Below, one piece after another: positions 49,581 through 64,000 of a stretch of 64,000 nt of DNA (its first letter is position 1; every line of letters starts with the position of its first letter). The position numbers and the translations under genes are program-made. The notes under the pieces were generated by a model. It saw only the letters and a program-made list of their open reading frames with translations, was not told the origin of the DNA and made no database searches. The stretch covers positions 1 through 64,000 of the forward strand of contig NZ_PABT01000052.1 in assembly GCF_002699205.1 (NCBI RefSeq), written 5' to 3'. The stretch is from Allomuricauda sp. Its GTDB lineage: Bacteria > Bacteroidota > Bacteroidia > Flavobacteriales > Flavobacteriaceae.

Positions 49581-50018
49581 TTAAGCAAACCACTGCCCCC
49601 AAGGGATACGGCTCAAAATCAACAATAGGCCCAATCCGTAAAAAATGGATATGGTTTTGAACTTTCTAACGCTTTCCATCAACTTTTTGTGACGGGACCA
49701 CCCCATAGTAATCAGTACCAAAGCTATAATATTGATAAACGGATGCTCTACGGCAAGCAAACGTGCAGGAGCATTAAGCCCTCCCATGCCCAAAGTCTGA
49801 ATTGCCTTAAGTCCATTCGTTGATGTGAGGAACAATAACAGCCCCACCAAAAGCTGTATATGGCTCAAGATAAGTGCAAAAAGGCTTATTCGAAGATCTT
49901 TGTGAAGTGTGAAGTCTTTTTTGCCCAACCAGCCCGCTATGGCATTGATGACGGCAATTACTAAAACGGCCAATACTACATAGGCCAAATAAGAGTGTAG
50001 GTTCTTGATGATTTCCAT
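49581..50018 (-). CDS. Four-helix membrane protein (cytochrome-b-like, uncharacterised)
   Basis: The 145-residue protein has four hydrophobic segments (~10-30, 45-68, 85-105, 122-142) with histidines at or near the helices (H8, H40, H54, H90, H108). Homologues in flavobacteria are often labelled cytochrome B, and the histidine placement would suit haem, but I cannot confirm it. It lies between the endonuclease gene and a TonB receptor and looks monocistronic. Confidence 0.7.
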   Translation of the reverse strand: MEIIKNLHSYLAYVVLAVLVIAVINAIAGWLGKKDFTLHKDLRISLFALILSHIQLLVGLLLFLTSTNGLKAIQTLGMGGLNAPARLLAVEHPFINIIALVLITMGWSRHKKLMESVRKFKTISIFYGLGLLLILSRIPWGQWFA

Positions 50019-50064
50019 TAGGTATAGTTTGTTCGGTTAAAAATACGGAATTTTAAACATAAAA

Positions 50065-50090
50065 AAACCCCTCACAAAAAGGAGGGGTTT
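50065..50090 (-). terminator. Rho-independent terminator of the 931-residue TonB receptor gene
   Basis: A perfect 9-bp stem AAACCCCTC / GAGGGGTTT with an 8-nt loop lies 24 bp past the receptor stop, with a T7 run on the minus strand. Confidence 0.85.
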
Positions 50091-50113
50091 TAATATATTA
50101 ATTCTATTTCGAA

Positions 50114-52909
50114 TTAGAATCTGTAACGCAAACCTAAGTTCCAAGTTCTTCCGAAGCCCCAGTACACATTGTTGGCCACATTAACTCCGTTCCATGTCTC
50201 ATCTCCAGCTTCTGCTTCTCTATTGGAAGTAGCTTCTGAAATATAAATTTCATCGAACACGTTGTTCACGTTCAACCTAAGATTAATGTATTTGGTTTTT
50301 TCCTTACCAAGAGTCATTCTGTATGACAGTCCTGCATCAATCAAATCGTAAGCCGGCAATTTCAATTGGAAATCACCTCCATCAGGAAGTCCATCAGAAT
50401 CTTGGTCCTGCAAGTCCAATACATCAAATTGTGCATAAAGATCTGCAGCGTGGTACCAGCTTGCATCGAAGAACAAGTTCTCTACTGGTTCAATAGTAGC
50501 GCCCAATCTCCATGTTGTTTGTGCAGCATCATCTACTTTTTGACCATCCAAGATCACAGTAGCTTCACCTACAACATTCTGACTTTCATCATATACTGTC
50601 CCAAGTGGGTTACCGGAATATTCCCAGTTACCCAAAGATAACATACCTGTAAATGTCAAGAATGAAGTTGGACGTGCAGTGAAGTCCAATTCAGCACCCA
50701 TGTGTACCTGCTCAACACCGTCGTAGTTCGCAGTACCAGAGAAAAGCTGATTTCCAAATTCATCGGTGATACTAACACCGTCGCTCAAGTATCTGTCGGC
50801 CCATGAAGTTCTATACAAGTTAACGTTAGCACTGAAGTATTGACTTCTGAAGCCATATCCAACTTCCAATCCAAAAATTTTCTCGTTCTGGTGATCCTCA
50901 TTGATATCATTCACATAGTTCAAGAAAATACCATCAAATATGGGTTGCTTGGAATAGTACCCAACATTACCAAATACATTGTGCTTTTCATCAATGTTGT
51001 AGTTTAAACCACCCTTGATGTTACCACCAATGATATTTACCCAATCAGATTTTTGCTCTGGATCGGAATCCAAGTAGTTAAAGTAATCGATTCTTTGGAA
51101 CCCTTGATTTGAGAACCCTCCTTGAATAAAGGCTGATATCTTGTCGTTCTTATACTCAACTTGTCCAAAACCGCCAAGCCAGTTTACCTTACCATCATTG
51201 TAATAATCGATTTTGGTTTCATCGTCAACATTCTTGAATACATTCCAAATATTTCCAATGGTTGGGGCATATGTGTCAGTGGTAAAATTATATGTGTTGT
51301 TAATATCATCATTGTCCACATAAACATCTGCACCCATAAGGTCCACCAATCTTCTGTAGTGGATACCTTTATACATTCTGGCATCTACACCTACATCAAA
51401 GGCCCAGTTGTCATTCAAATCGTTATGGAAGTTGATAATGGTACCGTACCAGTTGTGGGAGTTCATGGAAGAACGTTGTGAGATACCATTTTCAGAACTA
51501 AAAATGTGGTCGCCATCGTCTTCAAATCCATAACTATATTGTCCACCGTTTACGTACATACCTTGATAAGAAGCATCGCCTCCTCCAGTGTATCCAGTTC
51601 TTTGATCTCCAAATGCTGGAATATTGGCACCTTGGTTCCAGGCAACAATATCATCAAAACGGACGTGTCCGTTAGCATCTTTAAATTGTCCATAGTAAGA
51701 AGGACTGCCATTGATTCTACCAATAGAACCTATAGAACCACCACGACCTAGTGAAGCATAAACAACTGAAGACAACGTAGATTTGTCAGAGATTTTCCAA
51801 TCCCAGTTGATCATGGCTTTTGGTTTGTGGTAGAAGTTTCCTGAGAAGGTGTCTTCTTTACCGTCTCTATAACCGTAGTCGGAATTATAACGGATGTTAG
51901 GATCAACACCGTTGTTTCCGTATGCTATATAGTTACTGATGGATTCAGCGTAACCTCTTTGAAAGTGTTGCTGAGGAGCACCAGTCACCATAAATTGAAA
52001 ATCGTGCTTATCGTTAGGTCTGTACCCAATGGCCACAAAATAGTTGTACGCTTCGAATGGAGTTCCTTGAACATAACCATCACCCGCGGTACGACCAAAC
52101 AATGCACTTACAGAAAGTCCATTTTCCATAAGACCCGTATTATAACCCATTGTGGTCTTCAAGTAGTCGTTGTTACCTACTGTAGCGGCAACAGTACCAC
52201 CTTCTTTAAGATCAGCAGCTTTTGTGATTACGTTGATGGTACCACCCACAGATGAGATGGCCAATTTGGAGGAACCTAGACCTCTTTGTACCTGCATGGC
52301 AGAAGTTACATCGGAAAGTCCAGCCCAGTTACTCCAATATACCCATCCGTTTTCCATATCGTTAACAGGTACACCGTTGATCATTACCGCCGTGTTTCTT
52401 TGGTCAAAACCACGAACATTGATTCTGGAATCACCAAAACCACCCCCTTGTTTTGTTACATAGATAGATGGTGTTGATCTCAAGATTTCCGGAAACTCTT
52501 GAGAACCCAGTTTTTCAACAATTTCCGAGGCTTTAATTGTAGAAACAGCCACAGGAGTTTCCCTCTCTTTTGCAATATCCATTACCCCTGTCACAACAAC
52601 TTCACCTAATTGTTCAGCATCCGGCATCAATGTAATTGTGCCAATATTTCCGGTGGAAGTAAATGGAATTTCCTGTTTTAAAAATCCAATGTAGGACACC
52701 ACCAATGTTCCAGAGCTTTGGCTTACTTCCAAAGTAAAGTTTCCGTCAAAATCAGTAGATGTTCCTGTGCTGGTCCCTTTGACCATTACTGTAGCGCCTG
52801 GAAGTGGGCCGCCCATGTCGCCATCGGTTACCGTACCAGTAAGAGTTCCCTGTGAAAATGCCATTGCAGAAATGAAGATAGCTGCAAAAGCCAAGTAGAT
52901 TCTTTTCAT
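50114..52909 (-). CDS. TonB-dependent receptor with carboxypeptidase-regulatory-like domain
   Basis: The 931-residue protein has a signal peptide (MKRIYLAFAAIFISAMAFSQ), a regulatory-like beta-sandwich (~22-100: GTVTDGDMGGPLPGATVMVKG), a plug with EVVVTGVMDIAKERETPVAVST and NVRGFDQRNTAVMINGVPVNDM, and a long barrel ending in WNLGLRYRF. It is a paralogue of the 45666 receptor. No susD gene adjoins. Ligand unknown. Its own terminator and a 172-bp upstream spacer make it a single-gene unit. Confidence 0.88.
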   Translation of the reverse strand: MKRIYLAFAAIFISAMAFSQGTLTGTVTDGDMGGPLPGATVMVKGTSTGTSTDFDGNFTLEVSQSSGTLVVSYIGFLKQEIPFTSTGNIGTITLMPDAEQLGEVVVTGVMDIAKERETPVAVSTIKASEIVEKLGSQEFPEILRSTPSIYVTKQGGGFGDSRINVRGFDQRNTAVMINGVPVNDMENGWVYWSNWAGLSDVTSAMQVQRGLGSSKLAISSVGGTINVITKAADLKEGGTVAATVGNNDYLKTTMGYNTGLMENGLSVSALFGRTAGDGYVQGTPFEAYNYFVAIGYRPNDKHDFQFMVTGAPQQHFQRGYAESISNYIAYGNNGVDPNIRYNSDYGYRDGKEDTFSGNFYHKPKAMINWDWKISDKSTLSSVVYASLGRGGSIGSIGRINGSPSYYGQFKDANGHVRFDDIVAWNQGANIPAFGDQRTGYTGGGDASYQGMYVNGGQYSYGFEDDGDHIFSSENGISQRSSMNSHNWYGTIINFHNDLNDNWAFDVGVDARMYKGIHYRRLVDLMGADVYVDNDDINNTYNFTTDTYAPTIGNIWNVFKNVDDETKIDYYNDGKVNWLGGFGQVEYKNDKISAFIQGGFSNQGFQRIDYFNYLDSDPEQKSDWVNIIGGNIKGGLNYNIDEKHNVFGNVGYYSKQPIFDGIFLNYVNDINEDHQNEKIFGLEVGYGFRSQYFSANVNLYRTSWADRYLSDGVSITDEFGNQLFSGTANYDGVEQVHMGAELDFTARPTSFLTFTGMLSLGNWEYSGNPLGTVYDESQNVVGEATVILDGQKVDDAAQTTWRLGATIEPVENLFFDASWYHAADLYAQFDVLDLQDQDSDGLPDGGDFQLKLPAYDLIDAGLSYRMTLGKEKTKYINLRLNVNNVFDEIYISEATSNREAEAGDETWNGVNVANNVYWGFGRTWNLGLRYRF

Positions 52910-53081
52910 TTAATTCAGTGTTTAAGTGTTTAATTAGCCCTGCAAATGTGATTTATTTTTAACACACTCCCATTAAGCCAAAGTTAAAATCAAGCAAATG
53001 TAATTAACACTAAATTAACAAACAAAATTGACTGGCCAACAATTGTTTATGGTTTTCCCAACGATTTGAAAAGATGGCAAT

Positions 53082-54719
53082 TTACCCCTTAAAATAATGC
53101 AAAAGGTTCAATGTGGAACTATCGTGATCACTGAGTGTTGAATTTTCAATATCGGTCAAAATATTTTTGGCCAATTGCTTTCCAAGCTCCACCCCCCATT
53201 GATCGTAACTAAAAATATTCCATACGACCCCTTGTACAAATATCTTATGCTCGTAAAGTGCGATTAGCGCACCGAGACTTTTGGGTGTAAGTTTTTCAAT
53301 CAATATGGTATTGGTGGGTTTATTGCCCTCAAATATTTTAAAAGGAAGTAATTTTTGAAGTTCTTCACCGGCCAATCCTTGGGATTGGAGTTCATGTCTC
53401 ACCTCCTCCTCGGTTTTACCGTTCATCAAGGCCTCGGTCTGGGCAAAAAAATTCGCCATCAATTTATTGTGATGCCCCACATCTCCGTGCAACGATTTTC
53501 TGTAACCGATAAAATCCGTTGGAATCAATTTTGTTCCCTGGTGTATCAGTTGAAAAAAAGCATGTTGTGAATTGGTCCCCGGTTCACCCCAAATTATGGT
53601 TCCGGTCTCATAGCCCACTCTATTGCCCGACCTATCCATACTTTTACCGTTGCTCTCCATGATACCTTGCTGCAAGTATGCGGAAAAACGGTGCAGGTAT
53701 TGGGTATAAGGGATGATGGCCTCGGTCTCTGCGCCGTAAAAGTTGTTGTACCACACACTGAGCAGTGCCAATATTACCGGAATATTTTCTTCAAAAGGAG
53801 TTTCTTTAAAATGGGTGTCCATTTCGTTGGCTCCAGATAAAAGTGCTTCGAAATTATCATACCCTACGGAAAGTGCAATGGACAGTCCAACCGCACTCCA
53901 AAGCGAGAATCGACCACCGACCCAATCCCACATTGGGAATACATTTTCATTTGCAATACCAAATTCCTCGATTTTTTCAAGGTTGGTGGATACGGCCACA
54001 AAATGGTCTGCTACGTCTTTTTCCGATGCGCTTTGTAAAAACCATTTTTTTATGGTCAGTGCATTGGACAACGTTTCTTGGGTAGTAAATGATTTTGATA
54101 CTATTACGAACAATGTGGTCTCCGGGTCAAGCTCCTTCAATACTTCGTGAACGAGATCACCATCCACATTGCTTACAAAATGGGTCTTTAAATTATTTTG
54201 ATAAAATTTGAGTGCTTCGGTCACCATCACAGGGCCCAAATCCGACCCTCCGATACCAATATTCACGATATCGGTAAAAGCTTTGCCGGTATGTCCTTTT
54301 CGTTTCCCTGAGATTACAGCTTCGGAAAAGGATTTTATTTTCTCCTTGACCTCAAAAACCTCATCTACAATGTTTACACCATCTACAAAAATCTCCTCAC
54401 CTTTTTTCGCCCGCAATGCGGTATGCAAAACCGCACGTCCTTCTGTTTGATTGATGAGTTCCCCTCCAAAATATCCTTTTATGGCATCTTTTAAACCTGT
54501 TTCCTCTGCCAGTTCCAAAAGCAGCTCCAACGTTTTGTCGGTAACCCTATTCTTTGAATAGTCCACCAAAAAATCGTTCCAACGGATGGAAAATTTTTTG
54601 CCACGGGCCTCTTCTTTTAAAAAGAGTTCCCTTAAGTGAACGTCTTTTGTTTCTTGGTAATGTTGCCGTAGTTTTTTCCAGGCTTCAGTTGTTGTTGGGT
54701 TGATTGTGGGTAGTGCCAT
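53082..54719 (-). CDS. pgi: Glucose-6-phosphate isomerase
   Basis: The 545-residue protein has both SIS domains and the PGI signatures [10 protein letters not shown] (~150-160) and the C-terminal [16 protein letters not shown], with the substrate-loop region [19 protein letters not shown]. It interconverts glucose-6-phosphate and fructose-6-phosphate; the product is also the substrate of glmS at 16924. The start codon overlaps the stop of the upstream M23 peptidase gene by one base, so it is the last gene of the DUF3108-TDO-M23-pgi operon. Confidence 0.97.
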
Positions 54720-55999
54720 TATTGGGTGTACGATATTAATGTTTCTTCGGGTTCTACAGGTGTTTGTTCAATAAGCTCAATGCAGTCCAATTGATCTCGT
54801 AACGGCTGAATGTATGCCAAATAGTCGGCTCGCAGCGAATCTGCTATGGGCTCAGCAGATGGAAGTTCTTCCTTAAACGGGTCCACTTGTCTGCCATTTT
54901 TCCAAAAACGGTAACAAACGTGCGGCCCTCCCGTGTTTCCTGTCATTCCGATCCAACCAATTACATCTCCTTGACGCACAAAGTCCCCTTTCTTTACATT
55001 TTGAGCCTTCATGTGCAGGTATTGGGTACTGTAGGTGTCGTTGTGCCTGATCTTTACGTATTTCCCATTCCCCCCCCTTCTGGTCGATTCGGTCACTATT
55101 CCATCCGCCGTGGCCACAATGGGCGTGCCGATTGGAGCCGCAAAATCAGTTCCTTTGTGGGGTCTTACCTTATAACCGTAGTAAGCAATCCTTCTCTTTA
55201 GGTTGTACCGAGACGACAACCGATATTTGAATTTAACAGGTGCCCTTAAAAAGGTGCTTCGCAGGTTATTGGCGTCTTGGTCAAAATACTCCAAGATATT
55301 GTGGGTCGAATCTGATATATAAGGGAAAGCATAAATGGGTTTTCCCTTATGCTCAAAATAAGCCGCCTTTATTGAACCAATACCGGCATATATACTATCA
55401 TTTATATAGCGCTCATCAAAAATCACCTTGAACTTGTCGCCTTTGTCCAATCGTCCAAAATCGATGGTCCAAGCATATATATCCGAAAGCATAAAAGTCA
55501 AGTTGTAATCAACTCCCAAGGTATCAATGGACATTGACAGACTATGTTCTATAATCCCTCCAATCTCACGCTCCCTCAGGGTAACTTTCTTCTTGTCCTT
55601 GTATGCCACTACGGAATCGCGCAGATCGACCACTGTATAGTTAATTTTATCGTTTTGATAAATAAATACCTTGGCAACTTCAGAGGTGTCCTTTGATTTA
55701 AGAATAATATATGGTTTGCCCACCATTATTTTGCGAACATCGAAGGTGTCCCTATAATTTTCCGATACAGCGGCAATTTTTGGATAATCCACATTGTTCT
55801 TGAGCATCAGCTCACCAAAACTATCGCCGTTACGGACCGTATCATGAACTACTTTGAATTCATCAAGATTAAATCCGTAATGCAGCTCGGGAAGTTTCTC
55901 TATCGGTTCTGCCTTTGCTACTTCCTCAACCGGTTCTTTTGTTTGCTTGCATGATCCCAGCATCGCCAGTATCAAAATTGCCCCAATGATTTTATGCAT
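54719..55999 (-). CDS. M23 (LytM) peptidoglycan endopeptidase-like lipoprotein with HxC site
   Basis: The 426-residue protein has a lipoprotein signal ([17 protein letters not shown], Cys17), an OapA/LysM-like N-terminal region (~45-110: [17 protein letters not shown]), and a C-terminal LytM domain. The first zinc motif HxxxD is intact (H281, D285 in [10 protein letters not shown]), as is H329 in QYLHMKA. The canonical HxH is H360-V-C362, so a cysteine takes the usual zinc-ligand place. It should cut peptide cross-links at the cell wall. It is coupled to pgi downstream and tryptophan dioxygenase upstream. Confidence 0.9.
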
Positions 56000-56006
56000 T
56001 TTTCTT

Positions 56007-56981
56007 TTATTCCTTGTATTCTTTGTTCGCTGGATTAAAAATATGGTCCACCCATTGTTTTCCCCAATTTTCCAATTCGTCTTCCGAATACAAAGTTGGG
56101 AAAAATATTATTTTCTGGAAACTTGGCGGCAAATACTCCTTCCAATTGGTTCCTCCGGTTGCCTCCATCTCCTTGCCTTCCTTGGACAAATACCTATGGG
56201 CCGACCCCATGTGCATCAATGGCCAATTTACATTGGCATTCAAATCTAACTCTTTTAACGCTGAAATCAGCTCTTCATTGTTCTTGGAAGCATCGGGCAG
56301 TTGTAGGTATTTGTGGTATATGGTACTGTTCTTCACTTGGTTGGCAATACGTAAAAGTCTTGGTGTATACCTCACTTCAAATTGTTTCAGGGTCAACGTT
56401 TTTTCCCCGGTTTCCACATCGGTCGCCCCTTTTTTCCAGTATACGTGTTCAAACAAATCTTCGATACTGTCTTTTGAAGAAAATGAATCCCTTTGGGACG
56501 AATGCACCAAATTTTCCAATGGGGTAGCATAAAACTCAATCATCCTATATTGTACCGACTGAAATCCACTTGCGGGCAACAAGGCCATTCGGTACCTAAG
56601 AAACTGTTCCCGCTCCATCCCTTTTATCATAATACTGAAGGACGATATAAGCGCTTTGAAATAACTATTGATGCGGCGTGCCTTTTCTATAAAAAACTGA
56701 AGATCTTGGGATCTGTCCTCTACTATTTGTTTCTGTTCGTGAAGGATAAGTTTGAAGTAGAGCTCGGTAATCTGGTGGTACATGATGAAGATTTCTTCAT
56801 CTGGAAAATGCGTTCTCGGAATTTGAAGACTGAGCAAGGTGTCCAAATGGATATAATCCCAATAAGTAAGGTACCGTTGATAAAGAAGGCCGTCCAAATA
56901 GGAACTTAGGTCTTGGCCCGAATTTTTGAATTTTTCCTCTAACTTGTTTATCTGGGAAACAATTTTTGCATCCTTATCCAT
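56007..56981 (-). CDS. Tryptophan 2,3-dioxygenase family protein
   Basis: The 324-residue helical protein has the family features: distal histidine H69 in FIMYHQITELYFKL, the FLRYRMALLPASGFQSVQYR block (R in the substrate pocket), and proximal haem-histidine candidate H262 in MGSAHRYL followed by TGGT (~275-278). The canonical enzyme converts tryptophan to N-formylkynurenine. No other kynurenine-pathway gene is in the window; it sits in an operon with DUF3108, M23 peptidase and pgi. Confidence 0.88.
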   Translation of the reverse strand: MDKDAKIVSQINKLEEKFKNSGQDLSSYLDGLLYQRYLTYWDYIHLDTLLSLQIPRTHFPDEEIFIMYHQITELYFKLILHEQKQIVEDRSQDLQFFIEKARRINSYFKALISSFSIMIKGMEREQFLRYRMALLPASGFQSVQYRMIEFYATPLENLVHSSQRDSFSSKDSIEDLFEHVYWKKGATDVETGEKTLTLKQFEVRYTPRLLRIANQVKNSTIYHKYLQLPDASKNNEELISALKELDLNANVNWPLMHMGSAHRYLSKEGKEMEATGGTNWKEYLPPSFQKIIFFPTLYSEDELENWGKQWVDHIFNPANKEYKE

Positions 56982-56991
56982 TAACTCCCGT

Positions 56992-57783
56992 TTACTCTTT
57001 CATTATTATTTTAAATTGGTTCTTTAGCCCATTGTAGCCATCTAAATCCGCTTTTAAAGATCCTACGGCCAGATCCGCTTTTATCCGGATGGGAATTTTG
57101 TTCCAGTCGTTGGAAACCCATAGGGTCAAACTTTCTTTTTCCTTAAAAACACGACCGGACTGAACCAACGGCCTAAATTTAAGACATTCCACCTTTCCAA
57201 ACTTCGTCCTGAGGATTTCTTTCCCCAAATATTTTAGTTGGAACTTAAAAACCCCGTCGTCATCAAACAGCATATCCAAATCAATGGATTCCCCTACTTC
57301 AAATTCTTCGAGATTATAATTGCTCCTTAAAAAATAGGCGGCGGAAATCAAATCTTGTATTTGATCATGGATGGGTATGTTCATTTTTTTGCTGTTCTTG
57401 TTATCCTTTAGAACAGCAGTTTTCTGTTTATAGTCGAAATCAATCTCTATATCCTTGGTATACCCCCCCTCATCAATTTTCCGAATGAATCTATATGGTC
57501 TTCCGTGTTCGCGGTCGAAATAACTTTCGTAAGTGTCGTCCACTTTAAAAAAAATGCTGGCAAAACCTGTGGTTTTTCCTCTACCAACAGCATGGTAAAC
57601 AGGTACACCGTTCAATGTTTCCGAAGTCAGGTGCATGGTCGCGTAACTTGCATTTAGAATCCCATAATGTATCCTAAACTTTAGCCACTCACCTGGTTTA
57701 AATGCTGGTTTTGTACTTTGACCTATGACCGGTGTTGCCAAAAGAAGCAAAAACAAGGGCATCAGTATCTTTTTCATAGACAA
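56992..57783 (-). CDS. DUF3108 exported protein
   Basis: The 263-residue protein has a signal peptide (MKKILMPLFLLLLATPVIGQ; an ATG at 57777 would trim two residues) and the DUF3108 beta-rich domain (FKPGEWLKFRIHYGILNASYATMHL; WVSNDWNKIPIRIKADLAVGSLKADL at the end). Function is unknown; the fold suggests a periplasmic beta-barrel-like lipid or ligand binder. It is the first gene of a four-gene operon and lies 10 nt before the tryptophan dioxygenase gene. A TAATTTTA -7-like box on the minus strand is at 57795-57802. Confidence 0.83.
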   Translation of the reverse strand: MSMKKILMPLFLLLLATPVIGQSTKPAFKPGEWLKFRIHYGILNASYATMHLTSETLNGVPVYHAVGRGKTTGFASIFFKVDDTYESYFDREHGRPYRFIRKIDEGGYTKDIEIDFDYKQKTAVLKDNKNSKKMNIPIHDQIQDLISAAYFLRSNYNLEEFEVGESIDLDMLFDDDGVFKFQLKYLGKEILRTKFGKVECLKFRPLVQSGRVFKEKESLTLWVSNDWNKIPIRIKADLAVGSLKADLDGYNGLKNQFKIIMKE

Positions 57784-57874
57784 TTTTATTGGTATAAAAT
57801 TAGTAAAATCACTTTAGGGGCCATGCTGTTTATATATACTTAAACAAAACTTATTCCAAAATAGTATAAACAAA

Positions 57875-57902
57875 AAAAGCCCAGTCTCGAGACTGGGCTT
57901 TT
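57875..57902 (-). terminator. Perfect-palindrome terminator
   Basis: Arms AAAAGCCCAGTCTC and GAGACTGGGCTTTT form a loop-less 14-bp palindrome centred at 57888/57889, with a T7 run on the minus strand. It lies downstream of the patatin gene and ends the small RNA candidate. Confidence 0.85.
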
Positions 57903-57977
57903 CCTAAATAACCAACCAAACTTTAAATTATGAAAAACCAATACTTAAAGTTATAAGGGAACCACCCCTTATGTGGG
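57875..57977 (-). ncRNA. Candidate structured small RNA (~100 nt)
   Basis: On the minus strand a -7-like element (TATCTTTA, 57987-57980) would start a transcript near 57975-57977. It would fold into a 7-bp hairpin ATAAGGG-6 nt-CCCTTAT (57953-57972), then directly an 8-bp stem AACTTTAA/TTAAAGTT (57945-57952 with 57919-57926, 18-nt loop), a short linker, and the palindromic terminator at 57875-57902. No ORF of useful length lies in it (the plus strand has only an eight-codon ATG frame). The gap between patatin and DUF3108 genes (330 bp) holds little else. It could belong to a known flavobacterial RNA family such as Flavo-1; I cannot verify that. Confidence 0.5.
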
Positions 57978-57979
57978 TG

Positions 57980-57987
57980 TAAAGATA
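57980..57987 (-). promoter_or_regulatory. -7 element of the small RNA candidate
   Basis: TATCTTTA followed by CACCC on the minus strand resembles the Bacteroidota -7 consensus (TAnnTTTG). Confidence 0.45.
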
Positions 57988-57991
57988 CATC

Positions 57992-58013
57992 ACACTTTTG
58001 TAGGAAAAAGTGT
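57992..58013. promoter_or_regulatory. Dyad at the -33 region of the small RNA candidate
   Basis: ACACTTTT-N6-AAAAGTGT is a perfect 8-bp inverted repeat that would cover the -17 to -38 region of the RNA promoter. It may be an operator; on the plus strand it is followed by T5, so a weak terminator is the alternative. Confidence 0.3.
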
Positions 58014-58113
58014 TTTTAACGGACTTTAACTAAACCCCTGTTATTTTAATCATTTTTACTGATTTTTTTGACAAATTATTAAGATAATCGGCCGTTTTGA
58101 TAAAGGGATATCA

Positions 58114-60384
58114 TCAAAACCAATACCCAACACTCACGAAAAAATTACCGTCATCTATCTCTGGCGACCAGGAATAGTACAATTGAATCGGTCCCAAGAA
58201 AGACTCAAAGCCATAACCCACACCATAACCCGAAAAAGTTGGTGCCTCAAACCAAGTTCCCGTTCGAAAAAGGTCATCGGCAACATTGGCATAATTGACA
58301 GAAAAAAGTAAATGATGCTTTGGTGCCATACGATAATCCAAATTTCCATAACCTTTTACATAACTGTTGCCGGGAATGCTCAGAAAATCATATCCAAAAA
58401 AAGGCACAAAATTATTCGCAAAGTTGTTTCCAAAACCCCCGAGAATAAAATCAAAGGAGGTTACTTTTGAAGTCCCCAATTTTGCCCCCCCTTCGGTCTC
58501 AAGGTTTAGACTTAGATTATGGAACAAGGAAAATACCCCTCCCAGTTTGGCCCTCGCAACGGCAAATTCAGAGAAGTTTTCGTTATAATCTGATGAAAAA
58601 GCGTAAAAATGGATATCACCATCAAACAGTAATCCCTTGGTCGGAAAGTATTTATCGTCATAGGTGTCCAATTTGATTTGGGAAAAAGCGCTGAAATAGT
58701 TCGAGTTCTCAAAAGTGGTCCTTTGGTTTGAGACAGAAGACCCAATTTCAGCATCCTCCTCAATTTGGCTCAATGTCCTCGTACTATAGTTCAAGTATTT
58801 ATGCTCTGCCCCAACAGTGAACGCAAACTCTTCTTGAAGAACGGTTTGCAGGTATATTTGATTGGTAAGGTCCGTTACATCAATATTAATTCTTTGGATA
58901 TTGGGGTCGTTAGCCACATCAAAATTGTCCCTGATCAAGGAAAAATCAGCATCAGCATCAAAATTGGACAACTTAGAATTTATGCCAAAACTCCAGTAAT
59001 AGCCCTTATCCATGTAATATTGCATGTTGTACCTAATATGGTCTCCAAGTATAAAATCGAAGGAGGCCACATCGTCCTTCATTAAAAAATTTTTTCTGGT
59101 GAGGTTGATAAGGGCAGCACTTTTGTACAGATCATCGTAGTGGGCGGACATTTTAATGTACATCTTGGTCTGTTTTTCCTTGAGCTTTAAAACCAAATCC
59201 GTTCCCAGGCCATTGGATACAAGATCGTATCTGATCGCTCTAAAGTTTCCTGTGGCAGAAAGATTGTTTATGCCTTGTCTTAAATCTTCAAAAGAGATTT
59301 TTTCCGCTAGGTTGAACCTTAATTTACCTTTGATATAGCCTCTTGTATATCTGTCGTTTCCCTTAATAATCAATCGATTGACAATTAGACTGTCCACCGT
59401 TTTGATACTGCCGTTTTGATTCGCCCCGCCATTTTGAGCTTGGGCTATCTGAATCAACTCGTCCATTTTGTCCTTTGCAGATGCTTCACCGATTTCCACG
59501 ATTTCGCTTCCTTTTTCAAAATCGATCACGGAAAAATTCTCAATATCCGGCCGTATATAAATATCCGTTTTCTTCGATTTTTCCCTCATATCGTTCACCG
59601 TGCGGTAATTATTGATCTGGAGAAGAATTTCTGTAGCCGATGAAAGTGATTCCCGGGTGGCCAGATCGTGTTGCACATCAACCCCAATAATAATATCCGC
59701 ACCCATGGCTTTTACATGATTGATGGGGTAGTTGTTCACAACACCCCCGTCGATCAAAATTTGACCGTCTATTTCGGCCGGTTCAAACAATGATGGAAAT
59801 GTTCCACTGGCCACAATTGCTTCTGGAAGATACCCTTTATCCAATAAGATTTCCTCTCCCGTTTCCACATTGGTGGCCACACACAAAAATGGTATGGGCA
59901 ATTTGCTGAAATCCTGAACATCTTTTACATGAAAAAGTAACTGCACCAAAAGATTATAGATGTTTTGTCCTCCCGAAATCGCTTGTGGAAACGACACCTT
60001 AAAATCATCGAAGGGCAGTGAAAGCGCATACCGTTCCGAGTCTTCTTTCTCGTAAAATGTTTTAGCGCTTCGCGGGACATTGTCCTGAATCAAATTGGTA
60101 AAATCTATGCTCCTGAAAATGGAGTCCAACTGTTGGGCGGAGTAGCCTGATGCATACAGCGCACCAACTATGGCTCCCATACTTGTGCCCCCGATGTAAT
60201 CAATTTTAACGCCGGCTTCCTCAATGACCTTTAGCACCCCAATATGGGCCAAACCCTTGGCTCCACCACCACTTAGCACAAGGCCTACCTTGGGCGGTTC
60301 GCTGTCGGAAACATTTTGGGCCATGCCCACAGCGCCCAGTAAAGCAATTAAAACTGTTGTAATGATGATGGTCCTTTTTCCCAT
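58114..60384 (-). CDS. Patatin-like phospholipase with POTRA and BamA-type barrel
   Basis: The 756-residue protein has a signal peptide (to about residue 22), a patatin domain with oxyanion loop SGGGAKG (38-44), nucleophile S68 in GGTSMG and D212 in ILIDGGVVNNYP, one POTRA-like domain (~330-405: IKGNDRYTRGYIKGKLRFN), and a 16-strand beta-barrel ending in SVGYWF. This is the PlpD/type Vd autotransporter-like architecture: an outer-membrane-bound lipase. It likely hydrolyses phospholipid or lipid at the cell surface. It starts 3 nt after the uvrC stop. Confidence 0.92.
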   Translation of the reverse strand: MGKRTIIITTVLIALLGAVGMAQNVSDSEPPKVGLVLSGGGAKGLAHIGVLKVIEEAGVKIDYIGGTSMGAIVGALYASGYSAQQLDSIFRSIDFTNLIQDNVPRSAKTFYEKEDSERYALSLPFDDFKVSFPQAISGGQNIYNLLVQLLFHVKDVQDFSKLPIPFLCVATNVETGEEILLDKGYLPEAIVASGTFPSLFEPAEIDGQILIDGGVVNNYPINHVKAMGADIIIGVDVQHDLATRESLSSATEILLQINNYRTVNDMREKSKKTDIYIRPDIENFSVIDFEKGSEIVEIGEASAKDKMDELIQIAQAQNGGANQNGSIKTVDSLIVNRLIIKGNDRYTRGYIKGKLRFNLAEKISFEDLRQGINNLSATGNFRAIRYDLVSNGLGTDLVLKLKEKQTKMYIKMSAHYDDLYKSAALINLTRKNFLMKDDVASFDFILGDHIRYNMQYYMDKGYYWSFGINSKLSNFDADADFSLIRDNFDVANDPNIQRINIDVTDLTNQIYLQTVLQEEFAFTVGAEHKYLNYSTRTLSQIEEDAEIGSSVSNQRTTFENSNYFSAFSQIKLDTYDDKYFPTKGLLFDGDIHFYAFSSDYNENFSEFAVARAKLGGVFSLFHNLSLNLETEGGAKLGTSKVTSFDFILGGFGNNFANNFVPFFGYDFLSIPGNSYVKGYGNLDYRMAPKHHLLFSVNYANVADDLFRTGTWFEAPTFSGYGVGYGFESFLGPIQLYYSWSPEIDDGNFFVSVGYWF

Positions 60385-60387
60385 TGC

Positions 60388-62181
60388 TTACTTATGAAAA
60401 GTATTATAAATTTTTCTTGCCTTGGATGCTCCAACGGATGCGGTTAAATTTTCCAAGGATGCTTCTTTGATTCGCTTTACGGATTTAAACTGTTTTAACA
60501 ACTGTTGTGCAGTTTTTTCTCCAATTCCCTCAATATTGACCAACTCTGAACCAATAGCACCTTTGCTTCTTTTGTTCCTATGATGCGTGATTCCAAACCG
60601 GTGTGCCTCGTTTCTAAGCTGTTGGATTATTTTTAGGGTTTCCGACCTTTTGTCCAAATAAAGTGGGACGGGGTCGTCCGGAAAATAAATTTCCTCCAAA
60701 CGCTTGGCAATACCAATAATGGCAATTTTTCCCCGAAGTCCCAAAACTTCCAAACTTTTTAACGCAGAGGACAATTGGCCTTTTCCTCCATCTATTACAA
60801 TAAGTTGGGGCAAGGGTTCTTCTTCGCTGAGCAACCTTTTATATCTTCTAAAGACCACTTCTTCCATGCTGGCAAAATCATCTGGGCCCTCTACCGTTTT
60901 TATATTGAAATGGCGATAGTCTTTTTTTGAAGGTTTTCCGTCCTTAAAAACAACACATGCGGCAACGGGATTACTTCCTTGGATATTGGAATTGTCAAAA
61001 CACTCAATATGCCGTGGTTCCACAGAAAGCCGTAAATCCGATTTCATTTGCCCCATTATCCTTTTGGTATGTCGGTCTGGATCGGTAATTTTTATTTGTT
61101 TCAACCTATCCTGCCGATAAAACCTTGCATTGCGCTCCGAGAGGTCCAAAATCCTACGTTTGTCCCCCAACTTGGGAAGGGTTACCTTTAAATCATTGTC
61201 CACCGTGACAGGGAATGGTAGATACACCTCCTTGGATTGGGACTTGAACCGCTGTCTGATTTCGGTTATGGCCAATTGCAATAATTCTTCATCGGTTTCT
61301 TCCAACTTCTTTTTTATCTCCATCGTGTGCGACCTAATGATGGCTCCATGGGAAATTTGTAAAAAGTTCACATAGGCATATGCCTCATCAGAAATAATGG
61401 TGAACACATCCACATTATTGATTTTTGGGTTCACCACCGTGGATTTTACCTGATAATTCTCGAGGATATCAATTTTATCCTTGACGCGCTGGGCTTTTTC
61501 GAATTCCATTTTTTCAGCAAAATCATTCATTTGCTGTTTGAAGGTCCGGATGGAACTTTTCAGGTTTCCTTTGATAATTTGTCTGATTTCCTCAATCTGG
61601 CCATTGTACGCCTTCTCGCTCTGGAGTCCTTCGCAAGGCCCCAAACAATTGCCCAAATGATAATCCAGACATACTTTATATTTTCCGGCTGCTATCTTTT
61701 CTTGCGTGAGATCATAGTTGCAAGTACGCAACGGATATAGGCTCTTCACCAGGTCCAAAAGGGTCCTAACCGTTTTCATACTGGTGTAGGGCCCGAAATA
61801 TTCCGAACCGTCCTTAATAAGTTTTCGTGTGGAGAACACTCGTGGGAAACGTTCATTCTTAATGCATATCCAAGGATAGGACTTATCATCTTTCAGCAGT
61901 ACATTGTACCTTGGCAACAACTTTTTTATCAAATTGTTCTCCAATAAAAGGGCATCGGATTCGGTGGCCACAACAATGTGCTTTATGGAATGTATTTTTT
62001 TTACCAGCACCCTTGTTTTGCCATACTCCTGCTTTTTGTTGAAATAAGAAGAAACCCTTTTTTTTAGGTTCTTGGCCTTCCCGACATAAAGAATCTTGCC
62101 ATCAATATCATAAAATTGATATACCCCGGGACTATTGGGCAGCGCACTCAATTGTACTTTTAACGATACTGGTTTGGACAT
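60388..62181 (-). CDS. uvrC: UvrABC system protein C
   Basis: The 597-residue protein has an N-terminal GIY-YIG nuclease domain (PGVYQFYDIDGKILYVGKA, ~18-36), the CXXXCXXXC-like segment CLDYHLGNCLGPCEG (~168-182), a UVR motif (~205-240: IRTFKQQMNDFAEKMEFEKAQRVKDKI), an RNase H-like second nuclease domain (VIDGGKGQ, with D/D/H residues), and tandem HhH at the C-terminus. It makes both incisions of nucleotide excision repair. A TAAATTTG promoter element lies 38 bp upstream on the minus strand. Confidence 0.98.
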   Translation of the reverse strand: MSKPVSLKVQLSALPNSPGVYQFYDIDGKILYVGKAKNLKKRVSSYFNKKQEYGKTRVLVKKIHSIKHIVVATESDALLLENNLIKKLLPRYNVLLKDDKSYPWICIKNERFPRVFSTRKLIKDGSEYFGPYTSMKTVRTLLDLVKSLYPLRTCNYDLTQEKIAAGKYKVCLDYHLGNCLGPCEGLQSEKAYNGQIEEIRQIIKGNLKSSIRTFKQQMNDFAEKMEFEKAQRVKDKIDILENYQVKSTVVNPKINNVDVFTIISDEAYAYVNFLQISHGAIIRSHTMEIKKKLEETDEELLQLAITEIRQRFKSQSKEVYLPFPVTVDNDLKVTLPKLGDKRRILDLSERNARFYRQDRLKQIKITDPDRHTKRIMGQMKSDLRLSVEPRHIECFDNSNIQGSNPVAACVVFKDGKPSKKDYRHFNIKTVEGPDDFASMEEVVFRRYKRLLSEEEPLPQLIVIDGGKGQLSSALKSLEVLGLRGKIAIIGIAKRLEEIYFPDDPVPLYLDKRSETLKIIQQLRNEAHRFGITHHRNKRSKGAIGSELVNIEGIGEKTAQQLLKQFKSVKRIKEASLENLTASVGASKARKIYNTFHK

Positions 62182-62531
62182 AGAAGTTCTAAAAAAATGA
62201 ACTGTACGGATTTTACAACAAATTTATATTTTAATTGCGGGGTTTCCTGTTAAACTTGATCAATTACCGTTCTGTATTGATATTTGATTGTTTTCAGACC
62301 ACGAAACTTTAATAGAAGACCAAAATCAAAATTTTACTGATTTGGGATGCCATAGGCCTGGATTGGGTTTTTTCCACAAAAAAACTATGGAAAAACCATA
62401 TTCGTGTGACACAAATGCACGCCACTTTGTTAAACAGTTACTAAAATCCATGTATTTCATCGATAAAATGTGCATTTCATAGTAAATTTTTAGATTGTTT
62501 TACTTACATTTAACCATATAAAAACAATCCA
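62182..62531. other. Non-coding interval upstream of uvrC
   Basis: 350 bp between the uvrC start and the small ORF. It holds the uvrC -7 element (62219-62226, minus) and a plus-strand hairpin around 62366-62397 (GGTTTTTTCCA pairing with TGGAAAAACC, one bulge), with an alternative inner hairpin TATGG-AAAAA-CCATA. A 64-codon plus-strand frame at 62288-62482 looks like chance. Nothing else is recognised. Confidence 0.4.
62219..62226 (-). promoter_or_regulatory. -7 element of uvrC promoter
   Basis: TAAATTTG on the minus strand fits TAnnTTTG and ends 37 bp before the uvrC ATG. Confidence 0.5.
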
Positions 62532-62621
62532 ATGGAAAATTATATCATTGTTTTGGGAATGTACTTGATTTTGATGCTTTTCTTCAAAATATTCTTCTCT
62601 GTTGCCACAAAAGGAGAGTAA
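62532..62621 (+). CDS. Putative 29-residue single-pass membrane microprotein
   Basis: ATG at 62532 opens a 29-codon frame MENYIIVLGMYLILMLFFKI..., ending KGE before TAA at 62619. About 22 of the residues form one uninterrupted hydrophobic helix (residues ~4-25) with a charged tail, which suits a small inner-membrane protein of the KdpF/CcoQ size class; no kdp or cytochrome oxidase gene is nearby. A TACATTTA -7-like element is at 62505-62512. It lies 46 nt upstream of the 5-formyl-THF cyclo-ligase gene. It is a low-confidence call because a short AT-rich frame of this type can arise by chance. Confidence 0.35.
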   Translation: MENYIIVLGMYLILMLFFKIFFSVATKGE

Positions 62622-62667
62622 ATATAAATAGTACCCCCAAACGACCCTCTAAATCTTCAACATTAAA

Positions 62668-63231
62668 ATGTTGAAACGTGAACTACGAAAAAAATACAAA
62701 GATCTGAGAGCTGGCATGTCCCATGTTCAAGCTTCGGATTACAGTTTGATTTTGGCAAATAGTTTACTCCAAATCCCTATCTGGGATTTTTTTTATTACC
62801 ACACCTTTTTGAGCATGGAAGACAAAGTTGAAGTGGAAACACTTCCTTTGATCACACTACTGCAGGGAAAGGATAAAAACATTGTGGTTCCGAAGGTTTC
62901 TGGAAAACATTCAATGGAAAACTATTTACTTACCGATAGTATTACCATCAAAAAAAGTTCCTATGGTGTTCCCGAACCTGTGGACGGCATAGAAATACCT
63001 GAAAAAAAAATTGATGTGGTTTTTGTTCCCCTACTGGCTTTTGACACCTTGGGCAACCGGGTTGGGTACGGAAAAGGGTATTATGATGCCTTTTTGAACA
63101 AATGCAGGAAGGAAACCGTAAAAATTGGCCTATCCTTTTTTAGTGCGGAAAAAGAGCCAATAACCGATATCAATGAAAATGACGTGAAATTGGATTTTTG
63201 CGTTACTCCGGAAAAGATTTATGAATTCTGA
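62668..63231 (+). CDS. 5-formyltetrahydrofolate cyclo-ligase
   Basis: The 187-residue protein shows the family signature VPLLAFDTLGNRVGYGKGYYDAFL (~125-148), the N-terminal LKRELRKKYKDLRAGMS and the ATP-binding-basic segment (KRELRKKY). It converts 5-formyl-THF to 5,10-methenyl-THF with ATP, salvaging folate; it works on the same pool as fhs at 33375. The end overlaps the convergent lspA gene by 13 bp. Confidence 0.95.
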   Translation: MLKRELRKKYKDLRAGMSHVQASDYSLILANSLLQIPIWDFFYYHTFLSMEDKVEVETLPLITLLQGKDKNIVVPKVSGKHSMENYLLTDSITIKKSSYGVPEPVDGIEIPEKKIDVVFVPLLAFDTLGNRVGYGKGYYDAFLNKCRKETVKIGLSFFSAEKEPITDINENDVKLDFCVTPEKIYEF

Positions 63232-63872
63232 TCTATATCCGTTTGTTCATGTGCTTCACCCTGCTTTGGAAATGCCTTTTTGTTGAACACAATTAAAATA
63301 CCTACCCCTGTACTTATCGCAGTATCGGCAATATTGAACACAGGCTCGAAAAAACGGAAGCGTTGGCCTCCCCAAGCTGGCACCCATTCAGGCCAAGTAG
63401 TATCCACCAAAGGAAAATAAAGCATATCCACCACCTTACCATGAAACAAGCTCCCGTATGTTTCATCGGCAAATAGTGTGGCAACCTGTCCATTACTGTG
63501 ATCAAAAATAACCCCATAGAAAACAGAGTCAATAATATTCCCCACAGCACCCGCAAATATCAAAGAAACGGCCAATACCAAGGTTTTTGGTGATTGTTTT
63601 TTAATTATGTCCCAAAGCCAATACCCTATTCCGAAAACAGCAAAAATCCTGAAAATGGTCAAAATTAATTTCCCAACGGGTTCCGAGATCGGTAATAGGT
63701 CACTCAATTTAGTCCCCCACGCTGCACCTTCATTTTCAATAAAGAGAATTTTGAACCAACTGAAAACATCATGTGACTCACCTAGTACAAAACTGGTTTT
63801 TATGTAGATTTTACTTATTTGATCTACAAGTAGAATCAAAATGATAATAATAAGGGACTTTTTTAAACTCAT
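63219..63872 (-). CDS. lspA: Lipoprotein signal peptidase (signal peptidase II)
   Basis: The 217-residue protein has four membrane helices, with catalytic aspartates D115 (AGAVGNIIDSVFYG) and D183 (FNIADTAIS). It is longer than the E. coli enzyme because of an insertion of about 50 residues between the two Asp motifs (~121-172), normal for Bacteroidota. It matures the lipoproteins of the cell, including those at 18896, 32755, 38332, 44291 and 54719. A TATTTTTG -7 element lies at 63892-63899 (minus). Confidence 0.96.
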   Translation of the reverse strand: MSLKKSLIIIILILLVDQISKIYIKTSFVLGESHDVFSWFKILFIENEGAAWGTKLSDLLPISEPVGKLILTIFRIFAVFGIGYWLWDIIKKQSPKTLVLAVSLIFAGAVGNIIDSVFYGVIFDHSNGQVATLFADETYGSLFHGKVVDMLYFPLVDTTWPEWVPAWGGQRFRFFEPVFNIADTAISTGVGILIVFNKKAFPKQGEAHEQTDIDQNS

Positions 63873-63891
63873 GCTTTAACTAAAAGGGTTG

Positions 63892-63899
63892 CAAAAATA
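63892..63899 (-). promoter_or_regulatory. -7 element of lspA promoter
   Basis: TATTTTTG followed by CAACCC on the minus strand fits TAnnTTTG; it lies 19 bp before the lspA start and 6 bp past the stop of the gene at the right edge. Confidence 0.55.
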
Positions 63900-63905
63900 T
63901 GGATA

Positions 63906-64000
63906 TTATTTTGTTTTAGTGAGGAAGATATCACCTTCTACCGTCTTCAGGATAAAATGGTTGTATCCAAAGGGAATTATCTCCTTTTCTACATTCCCAT
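63906..64000 (-). CDS. C-terminal end of an unidentified protein (partial)
   Basis: Reading the minus strand in from the right edge gives an open frame of 30 residues, ...EKEIIPFGYNHFILKTVE and GDIFLTKTK, then TAA at 63906. The rest is outside the window. The run of alternating hydrophobic residues suggests a beta-strand C-terminus. Too little is present to name it. Confidence 0.45.
   Translation of the reverse strand, partial: GNVEKEIIPFGYNHFILKTVEGDIFLTKTK

Follow-up and report, generated by a model that had tools for sequence, protein, structure and literature searches.

Between a patatin gene and a gene for a DUF3108 protein, the DNA analysed here (a window of 64,000 nucleotides from an Allomuricauda genome) carries a compact stretch of hairpins, which raises the question of whether it encodes an RNA of its own and, if so, what that RNA does. 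A preliminary description of the window had proposed a discrete regulatory RNA or an RNA derived from the 3' UTR of the patatin gene. All features that it named were found on the minus strand where it had placed them, and the locus is made up as follows.

57872..57974, minus strand: RNA gene of ~100 nt; the match of covariance model R2 spans 57973-57878
57987-57975, minus strand: box TATCTTTACACCC, read from the sequence
57980..57987, minus strand: -7 box TATCTTTA of the Bacteroidota primary sigma factor type; TAnnTTTG in many homologues
57953..57972, minus strand: hairpin 1, ATAAGGG-GTGGTT-CCCTTAT, 7 bp; 4/7 pairs changed on both sides
57919..57952, minus strand: hairpin 2, AACTTTAA(GU)...(AU)TTAAAGTT, 8 bp, abutting hairpin 1; 3' arm within the seed
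57899..57937, minus strand: putative seed TTTTTCATAATTTAAAGTTTGGTTGGTTATTTAGGAAAA, complementary to SusC translation initiation regions; 23/26 invariant columns
57872..57902, minus strand: intrinsic terminator, 14-bp palindromic stem plus T7; 5/9 modelled pairs compensatory
58015..58030, minus strand: direct repeat GTTAAAGTCCGTTAAA with 10-bp period upstream of the promoter, candidate activator site; read directly
57841..57860, minus strand: TTTGGAATAAGTTTTGTTTA, sigma54-like (GG-N10-GT) putative promoter of the DUF3108 gene, separate from the RNA; 56/82 representatives
56992..57783, minus strand: gene for the DUF3108 protein (PF11306), constant downstream neighbour; downstream in 207/221 loci

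The 5' end of the RNA gene (~57974-57972) was placed from the promoter box and the onset of conservation. The terminator contains a perfect 28-nt palindrome, AAAAGCCCAGTCTCGAGACTGGGCTTTT (57902-57875, minus strand), which enters the T7 run at 57878-57872; with 16 pairs it has the most among 17 terminator-like sites in 50000-64000 (runner-up, 11). This palindrome had been described as loop-less, which is impossible for an RNA, and the predicted fold has a UCGA loop. Hairpin 2 lies where it had been described as an 8-bp stem, and its extent had to be revised to 10 predicted outer pairs (one G-U) plus 3 inner pairs. The whole RNA is predicted to fold at -40.7 kcal/mol, compared with a mean of -22.8 kcal/mol for dinucleotide shuffles (z -5.4), and none of 200 shuffles was as good. 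Without the terminator, the z score was only -1.85 and 11 of 200 shuffles folded equally well; this part of the molecule is unremarkable against shuffles, and the case for an RNA therefore rests on comparison. Folding is insufficient by itself and, at the level of sequence, it is conservation and covariation that settle the reading as an RNA.

For this comparison, 82 representatives were drawn from 167 distinct RNAs at 228 places. The GTGGTT loop was present together with GGTTGGTTATTTA in 53 of them, and after exclusion of 12 (mostly with indels) the covariation set comprised 41 sequences. Across this set 98.0% of 1058 cells were paired (99.7% in the terminator), and both sides of a pair had changed in 85 cells, compared with 20.2 +/- 6.4 in shuffles. 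Compensatory pairs, which the preliminary description had suggested looking for, were found in hairpin 1 (4/7) and the terminator (5/9), and all six slid-partner controls collapsed. Hairpin 2 barely varied, with 8 of its 10 pairs invariant and the outermost pair unpaired in 11 of the 41 sequences; no homologous intergenic region that conserves neither stem occurred among the 41. The loop of hairpin 1 is GTGGTT or GTGGTG in most homologues. A few homologues have extra nucleotides between stems 1 and 2, which the preliminary description had seen as able to stack coaxially. In some of the most divergent homologues (L079, L080, L107 and L109) the left arm of stem 2 is lost, with most of the right arm and the linker kept, so that what is constrained seems to be the sequence TTTTCATAATTTAAAGTTT(T)GGTTGGTTA and not the stem itself. 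Alignment A1, built from 77 of the 82 representatives (L086, L107, L109, L274 and L280 excluded), has 23 of its 26 invariant columns within the seed stretch. An RNAalifold model of A1 (R1) gave a spurious 4-pair structure and was discarded.

A TAnnTTT[G/A] box stands directly upstream in 76 of the 82 representatives; TAnnTTTG is the sigmaA -7 box in Flavobacterium psychrophilum, according to the part of the source drawn on here (PMC9723704). The promoter box, the compensatory changes in hairpin 1 and the terminator, and conservation far outside the genus bear out the proposal of a discrete regulatory RNA, and the RNA gene is almost certainly real. The gene, its structure, its conservation and its complementarity to SusC starts are all legible in the DNA. 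Farther upstream a GTTAAAG(-N3-GTTAAA) motif or GTTAAA recurs in most of the 82 representatives, and this recurrent repeat suggests a dedicated activator as the trigger. In the own genome the GTTAAAG repeat pattern was not enriched (14 sites vs 47 for the reversed pattern), and as a regulon marker it defined no regulon there.

A BLAST search with a 171-nt segment found the RNA in all 71 genus genomes (84-100% identity) and gave matches, some of them short, in 105 of 397 family genomes at E<=1e-4. At least one family match that was read (L110) is not the RNA. In 24 family genomes of other genera, identity was 95-100% over the aligned 75-104 nt, running from hairpin 1 into the linker or terminator. 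Covariance model R2 matched 166 of 397 family genomes and 105 of 237 genera, its weak matches (about 30-45 bits) being a mix of orthologues, paralogues and some false or chance matches; 18 regions, chiefly weak or extra matches, were read. Matches were found in 35 of 296 genomes of the order sample (34 in the own family) and 28 of 395 of the phylum sample (26 in the own family). Those outside the family (G618, G764, G1001) looked on inspection like AT-rich sequence plus a terminator and were unconvincing; the RNA thus seems to be characteristic of Flavobacteriaceae. Hosts among the pattern-scan matches listed include Allomuricauda/Flagellimonas, Maribacter, Zobellia, Arenibacter, Cellulophaga, Robiginitalea, Kordia, Galbibacter and Capnocytophaga. 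BLAST and the covariance model agree on one full copy in the own genome, which has one further RNA-like site that shares just the 17-nt seed core. Tandem copies ~280-530 nt apart were seen at L084, L087, L145, L178, L091 and L174 (Kordia and Cerina among the named hosts), and a 2.6-Mb genome (G093) carries three dispersed copies (L089, L106, L424), with DUF3108 found at none of the three.

Plasmids and phages gave no blastn match to the RNA and viral contigs gave 0 exact pattern matches, and a mobile or phage origin was unsupported by these searches. The comparison with Rfam that had been proposed at the outset was carried out and assigned no family: in the window, Rfam 15 (4227 families) gave 0 matches at the curated gathering score, and on seven loci all 18 matches at E<=1 were below gathering, including BTnc231 with 29.5 bits (gathering 80.4) on both strands of one locus (L001). 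Among the papers listed in the literature searches, none was seen to describe the RNA.

What the RNA might act on was assessed from the energy predicted by RNAduplex for the seed against positions -40..+20 of each gene, a score that ignores accessibility and takes the first ATG of each frame as the start. The SusC set of the own genome consisted of 30 of the 34 genes over the cut-off, minus one with an internal stop (L132), giving 29, and that of a second genome (G659) of 30 of 40. In the own genome, SusC starts averaged -16.85 kcal/mol compared with -12.63 kcal/mol for 360 other genes (P 2.1e-9, AUC 0.83); in G659 the values were -16.38 and -11.60 for 257 others (P 3.3e-8, AUC 0.80). None of 100 shuffled seeds per genome matched the real seed, reaching AUCs of at most 0.72 in the own genome, where they were scored on a third of the background, and 0.61 in G659. 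The excess was confined to the -40..+20 window and absent from seven other windows in each genome. It persisted when SusC genes were compared only with MK-starting, signal-peptide-like or long genes (P 3.2e-5 to 3.2e-6), and the linker part scored against the 5' UTR alone separated SusC too (P 1.3e-8 and 5.8e-11). The SusC leaders do not closely resemble one another, with a median best ungapped identity of 0.52 and 0.53 in the two genomes, and the predicted pairing spans the mRNA from about -25 to about +5. Neither loop 1 nor the left arm of stem 2 showed a SusC preference, and the reversed seed showed a slight one (P 0.065).

Of the 30 best-scoring sites, only 9 in the own-genome sample and 14 in G659 belonged to SusC genes, and the highest-ranking single site of the own-genome sample (L308 on C27; -23.2 kcal/mol; leader ...attaactaaccaacaaaatttagaattATG) is not SusC. 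Either the RNA has a broad range of targets, then, or the score is noisy. By eye, the product of L308 is a solute-symporter-like protein. The own genome showed no excess of long near-perfect antisense matches (4 sites, not counting the RNA, vs 3 control sites). Across 60 family genomes the antisense pattern gave 41 sites vs 8 control sites, but no fewer than 14 of these are the seed of the RNA itself, and L274 and L280 turned out to be divergent copies; the count was therefore not used as evidence of targets. No co-evolution of seed and leader was seen, three seed variants performing about equally in both genomes.

The mechanism that best fits these observations, and that we consider probable, is that of a trans-acting sRNA controlling SusC. 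In the scheme that we infer for its transcription, pairing in the cell, pairing order, repressive action and trigger, an RNA of ~100 nt would be transcribed from its own primary-sigma promoter and ended by the intrinsic terminator, with hairpin 1 and the terminator serving as structural parts. The near-invariant UUUUCAUAAUUUAAAGUUUGGUUGGUUA (hairpin 2 loop and 3' arm, single-stranded linker) would act as an antisense seed whose targets are translation initiation regions that carry an AACYAACC-like leader directly ahead of the AUG, chiefly those of SusC-type TonB-linked outer-membrane transporters. Pairing would begin at the unpaired GGUUGGUUAUUUAGG linker and then open hairpin 2, and the resulting duplex over about -25 to +5 of the mRNA would block ribosome entry; the outcome is most likely lowered SusC translation. 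The tight linkage to DUF3108 is left unexplained by this trans-acting model.

That linkage speaks for a cis-acting leader or attenuator, in which the hairpins and terminator would lie in a long 5' UTR of DUF3108 and control read-through. A DUF3108 gene follows the RNA on the same strand in 207 of 221 loci, within 350 nt in 199 of the 207, and is present in 19 of 20 further divergent loci. The 221 loci exclude L066 and L266 (repeats of the own copy), L264 duplicates the place of L106, and two genome collections overlap in species, so that 221 loci do not equal 221 species. At the DUF3108 start the seed energy averages -13.5 (n 75), slightly better than with shuffled seeds (-11.3), but compared with background genes (-12.6) this start does not stand out as a target, and the constant part of the RNA is the seed. 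Furthermore, of nine loci without DUF3108 nearby, which include dispersed copies (one Capnocytophaga-type genome) and the tandem pair L087, eight keep the promoter box and all nine the T run.

Also against an attenuator, a separate promoter-like element, TTTGGAAYA-N4-TTGTTTA, lies between the terminator and DUF3108 in 56 of 82 representatives (vs 15 of 1640 shuffles), and the terminator is 5 to 210 nt away from it. The element is a putative sigma54 promoter: its GG-N10-G spacing is that of the sigma54 type, although the -12 element, usually GC in such promoters, reads GT in 53 of 55 sequences. The flanks ACAATAC...AAGTAATTGT of the element (57841-57860, minus strand) are also conserved. Promoters of the sigma54 type drive genes for chaperones, envelope stress and gliding in F. 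psychrophilum, and one RNA, Rfp36, is among those listed (PMC9723704). DUF3108 would then be a separate unit, possibly stress-induced, and we regard an attenuator as unlikely.

Somewhat less likely still is that the RNA binds a protein, for instance an RRM protein such as RbpB, rather than mRNAs, with GGUU-type repeats as the sites. GGUGGUU, UUGGUUUUU and GGUUGGUUA do recur in loop 1, loop 2 and the linker, and the FopS RNAs of Bacteroides thetaiotaomicron are reported to bind RbpB (PMC11697453). However, start-codon-specific complementarity to SusC is not predicted by such a role; protein binding and base pairing are compatible with each other.

The patatin 3' UTR, the second origin considered in the preliminary description, would make the RNA a fragment with no independent transcript. 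Patatin is upstream in 147 loci, within 400 nt on the same strand in 92, including all 31 genus loci read; because it is always near in these, the genus alone is uninformative on this question. In the 55 other loci, however, it is farther off, mostly by about 1.4-1.8 kb, with room for another gene, and the RNA promoter is still kept; with the box present in 76 of 82 representatives, this origin is highly improbable. The patatin gene of the window (58114-60384, minus strand) encodes a patatin domain fused to an Omp85_2 beta-barrel domain, which we take to be a secretion-type architecture. Equally hard to credit is a conserved DNA element or a small protein (a plus-strand MKNQYLKL frame, for which the plus strand resembles a leader plus ATGAAAAAC, or a minus-strand frame open from TTG), given the compensatory changes in two helices, the mere complementarity of the plus strand to the seed, and minus-strand frames that differ among five homologues, several with stops.

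Returning to the trans-acting sRNA, its seed core also occurs in other settings. The exact 17-mer TTTGGTTGGTTATTTAG followed by a terminator is found in the own genome outside the window (locus L005, G000:C8:86635-86651, minus strand), 28.7 kb away, between genes for glycerol-3-phosphate dehydrogenase and a sulfate permease (Pfam). A second 17-mer site stands beside the dehydrogenase gene in three relatives as well (L432, L433, L438; 15.6-29 kb), and a second RNA-like 3' end with the exact 17-mer was thus kept in all four genomes searched. Exact copies stand out at two per genome in 4/4 genomes; with two mismatches allowed, the 17-mer was not commoner than its reversed control in the four genomes (56 vs 67 sites). 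The gene ahead of the seed core in L438 and L433, at a distance of 34-36 nt, encodes a lipoprotein-like product of about 300 aa that belongs to no Pfam family; no comparable open frame was found ahead of L005 in the own genome. Hsp20 genes (Pfam HSP20) in L416, L419 and L420 have a seed-core variant plus terminator 34-41 nt past the stop codon. Finally, an sRNA candidate with a GTGGTT loop and the seed GGTTGGTTAGTTA lies behind a canonical TTTGGCAC-N5-TTGC sigma54 promoter in L423, L428 and L430, with near-canonical variants in L421 and L427; it is possibly related to Rfp36-type RNAs.

These sites suggest a shared seed word wired to stress signals, a lead rather than a result. In its fullest form, which we put forward tentatively and with less than even confidence, a Flavobacteriaceae seed word around GGUUGGUUA (often with UUUUCAUAAU before it and a terminator after it) would be common to differently controlled RNAs, namely the DUF3108-linked sRNA with its primary-sigma promoter, the sRNA with the sigma54-type promoter, and the 3' ends of mRNAs for Hsp20 and lipoprotein-like proteins. 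As a group they would make up a lineage-specific envelope-stress circuit that shuts off the synthesis of SusC-type outer-membrane proteins upon protein misfolding, comparable to the sigmaE-MicA/RybB circuit in enterobacteria.

Most of what is known about post-transcriptional control in Bacteroidota comes from Bacteroides. Flavobacteriaceae are major marine polysaccharide degraders, and the almost invariant core of the RNA spans many of their genera. If the proposed function is true, translational control of glycan uptake by sRNAs would not be a gut speciality, and a mostly single-copy sRNA would offer a test case for such control. It would also represent a new RNA family for Rfam and might explain why AACYAACC-like leaders recur in SusC mRNAs.

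Among known sRNAs, the enterobacterial MicA, RybB and OmrA/B turn down outer-membrane protein synthesis at the start codon; they belong to another phylum and are work-alikes only, with no homology claimed. GibS of B. thetaiotaomicron, as far as described in the part of the source consulted (PMC7366714), is likewise trans-acting and pairs with translation initiation regions, but it is 145 nt long, has a non-canonical PM2 promoter and a seed in its 5' portion, and acts on metabolic targets. Rfp18 and other "indep TR" RNAs of F. psychrophilum resemble the present RNA as structured sRNAs conserved across Flavobacterium with predicted pairing to several mRNAs, by the account excerpted from PMC9723704. 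Rfp18 is reported to pair through its third stem-loop with metalloprotease mRNAs, two of which fall in the deletion mutant (PMC9723704), whereas here the third stem-loop is the terminator. The orthologue may well be among the 45 non-antisense RNAs of the Rfp1-89 set (PMC9723704).

The closest parallel is FopS, which represses SusC translation by pairing at the start codon and is reported as deposited in Rfam; the comparison follows its description in the part of PMC11697453 drawn on. Both are Bacteroidota sRNAs, mostly intergenic, with an intrinsic terminator, a canonical primary-sigma promoter (here TAnnTTT[G/A] in 76/82) and a seed complementary to the SusC translation start, in the present case by in silico prediction (PMC11697453). 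In contrast, FopS occurs in 12-15 copies per genome, compared with one full copy here, and is about 65-70 nt long with a single-stranded 5' seed followed by the terminator, whereas the RNA described here is predicted to have ~100 nt, two hairpins before the terminator and an internal seed (PMC11697453). FopS also belongs to Bacteroidaceae, the present RNA to Flavobacteriaceae and to a fixed locus beside DUF3108 (PMC11697453). As it has neither the multicopy nor the open-5'-seed architecture, the RNA was not classed as FopS; judged against that description, it most likely works like FopS and differs from it in architecture and copy number.
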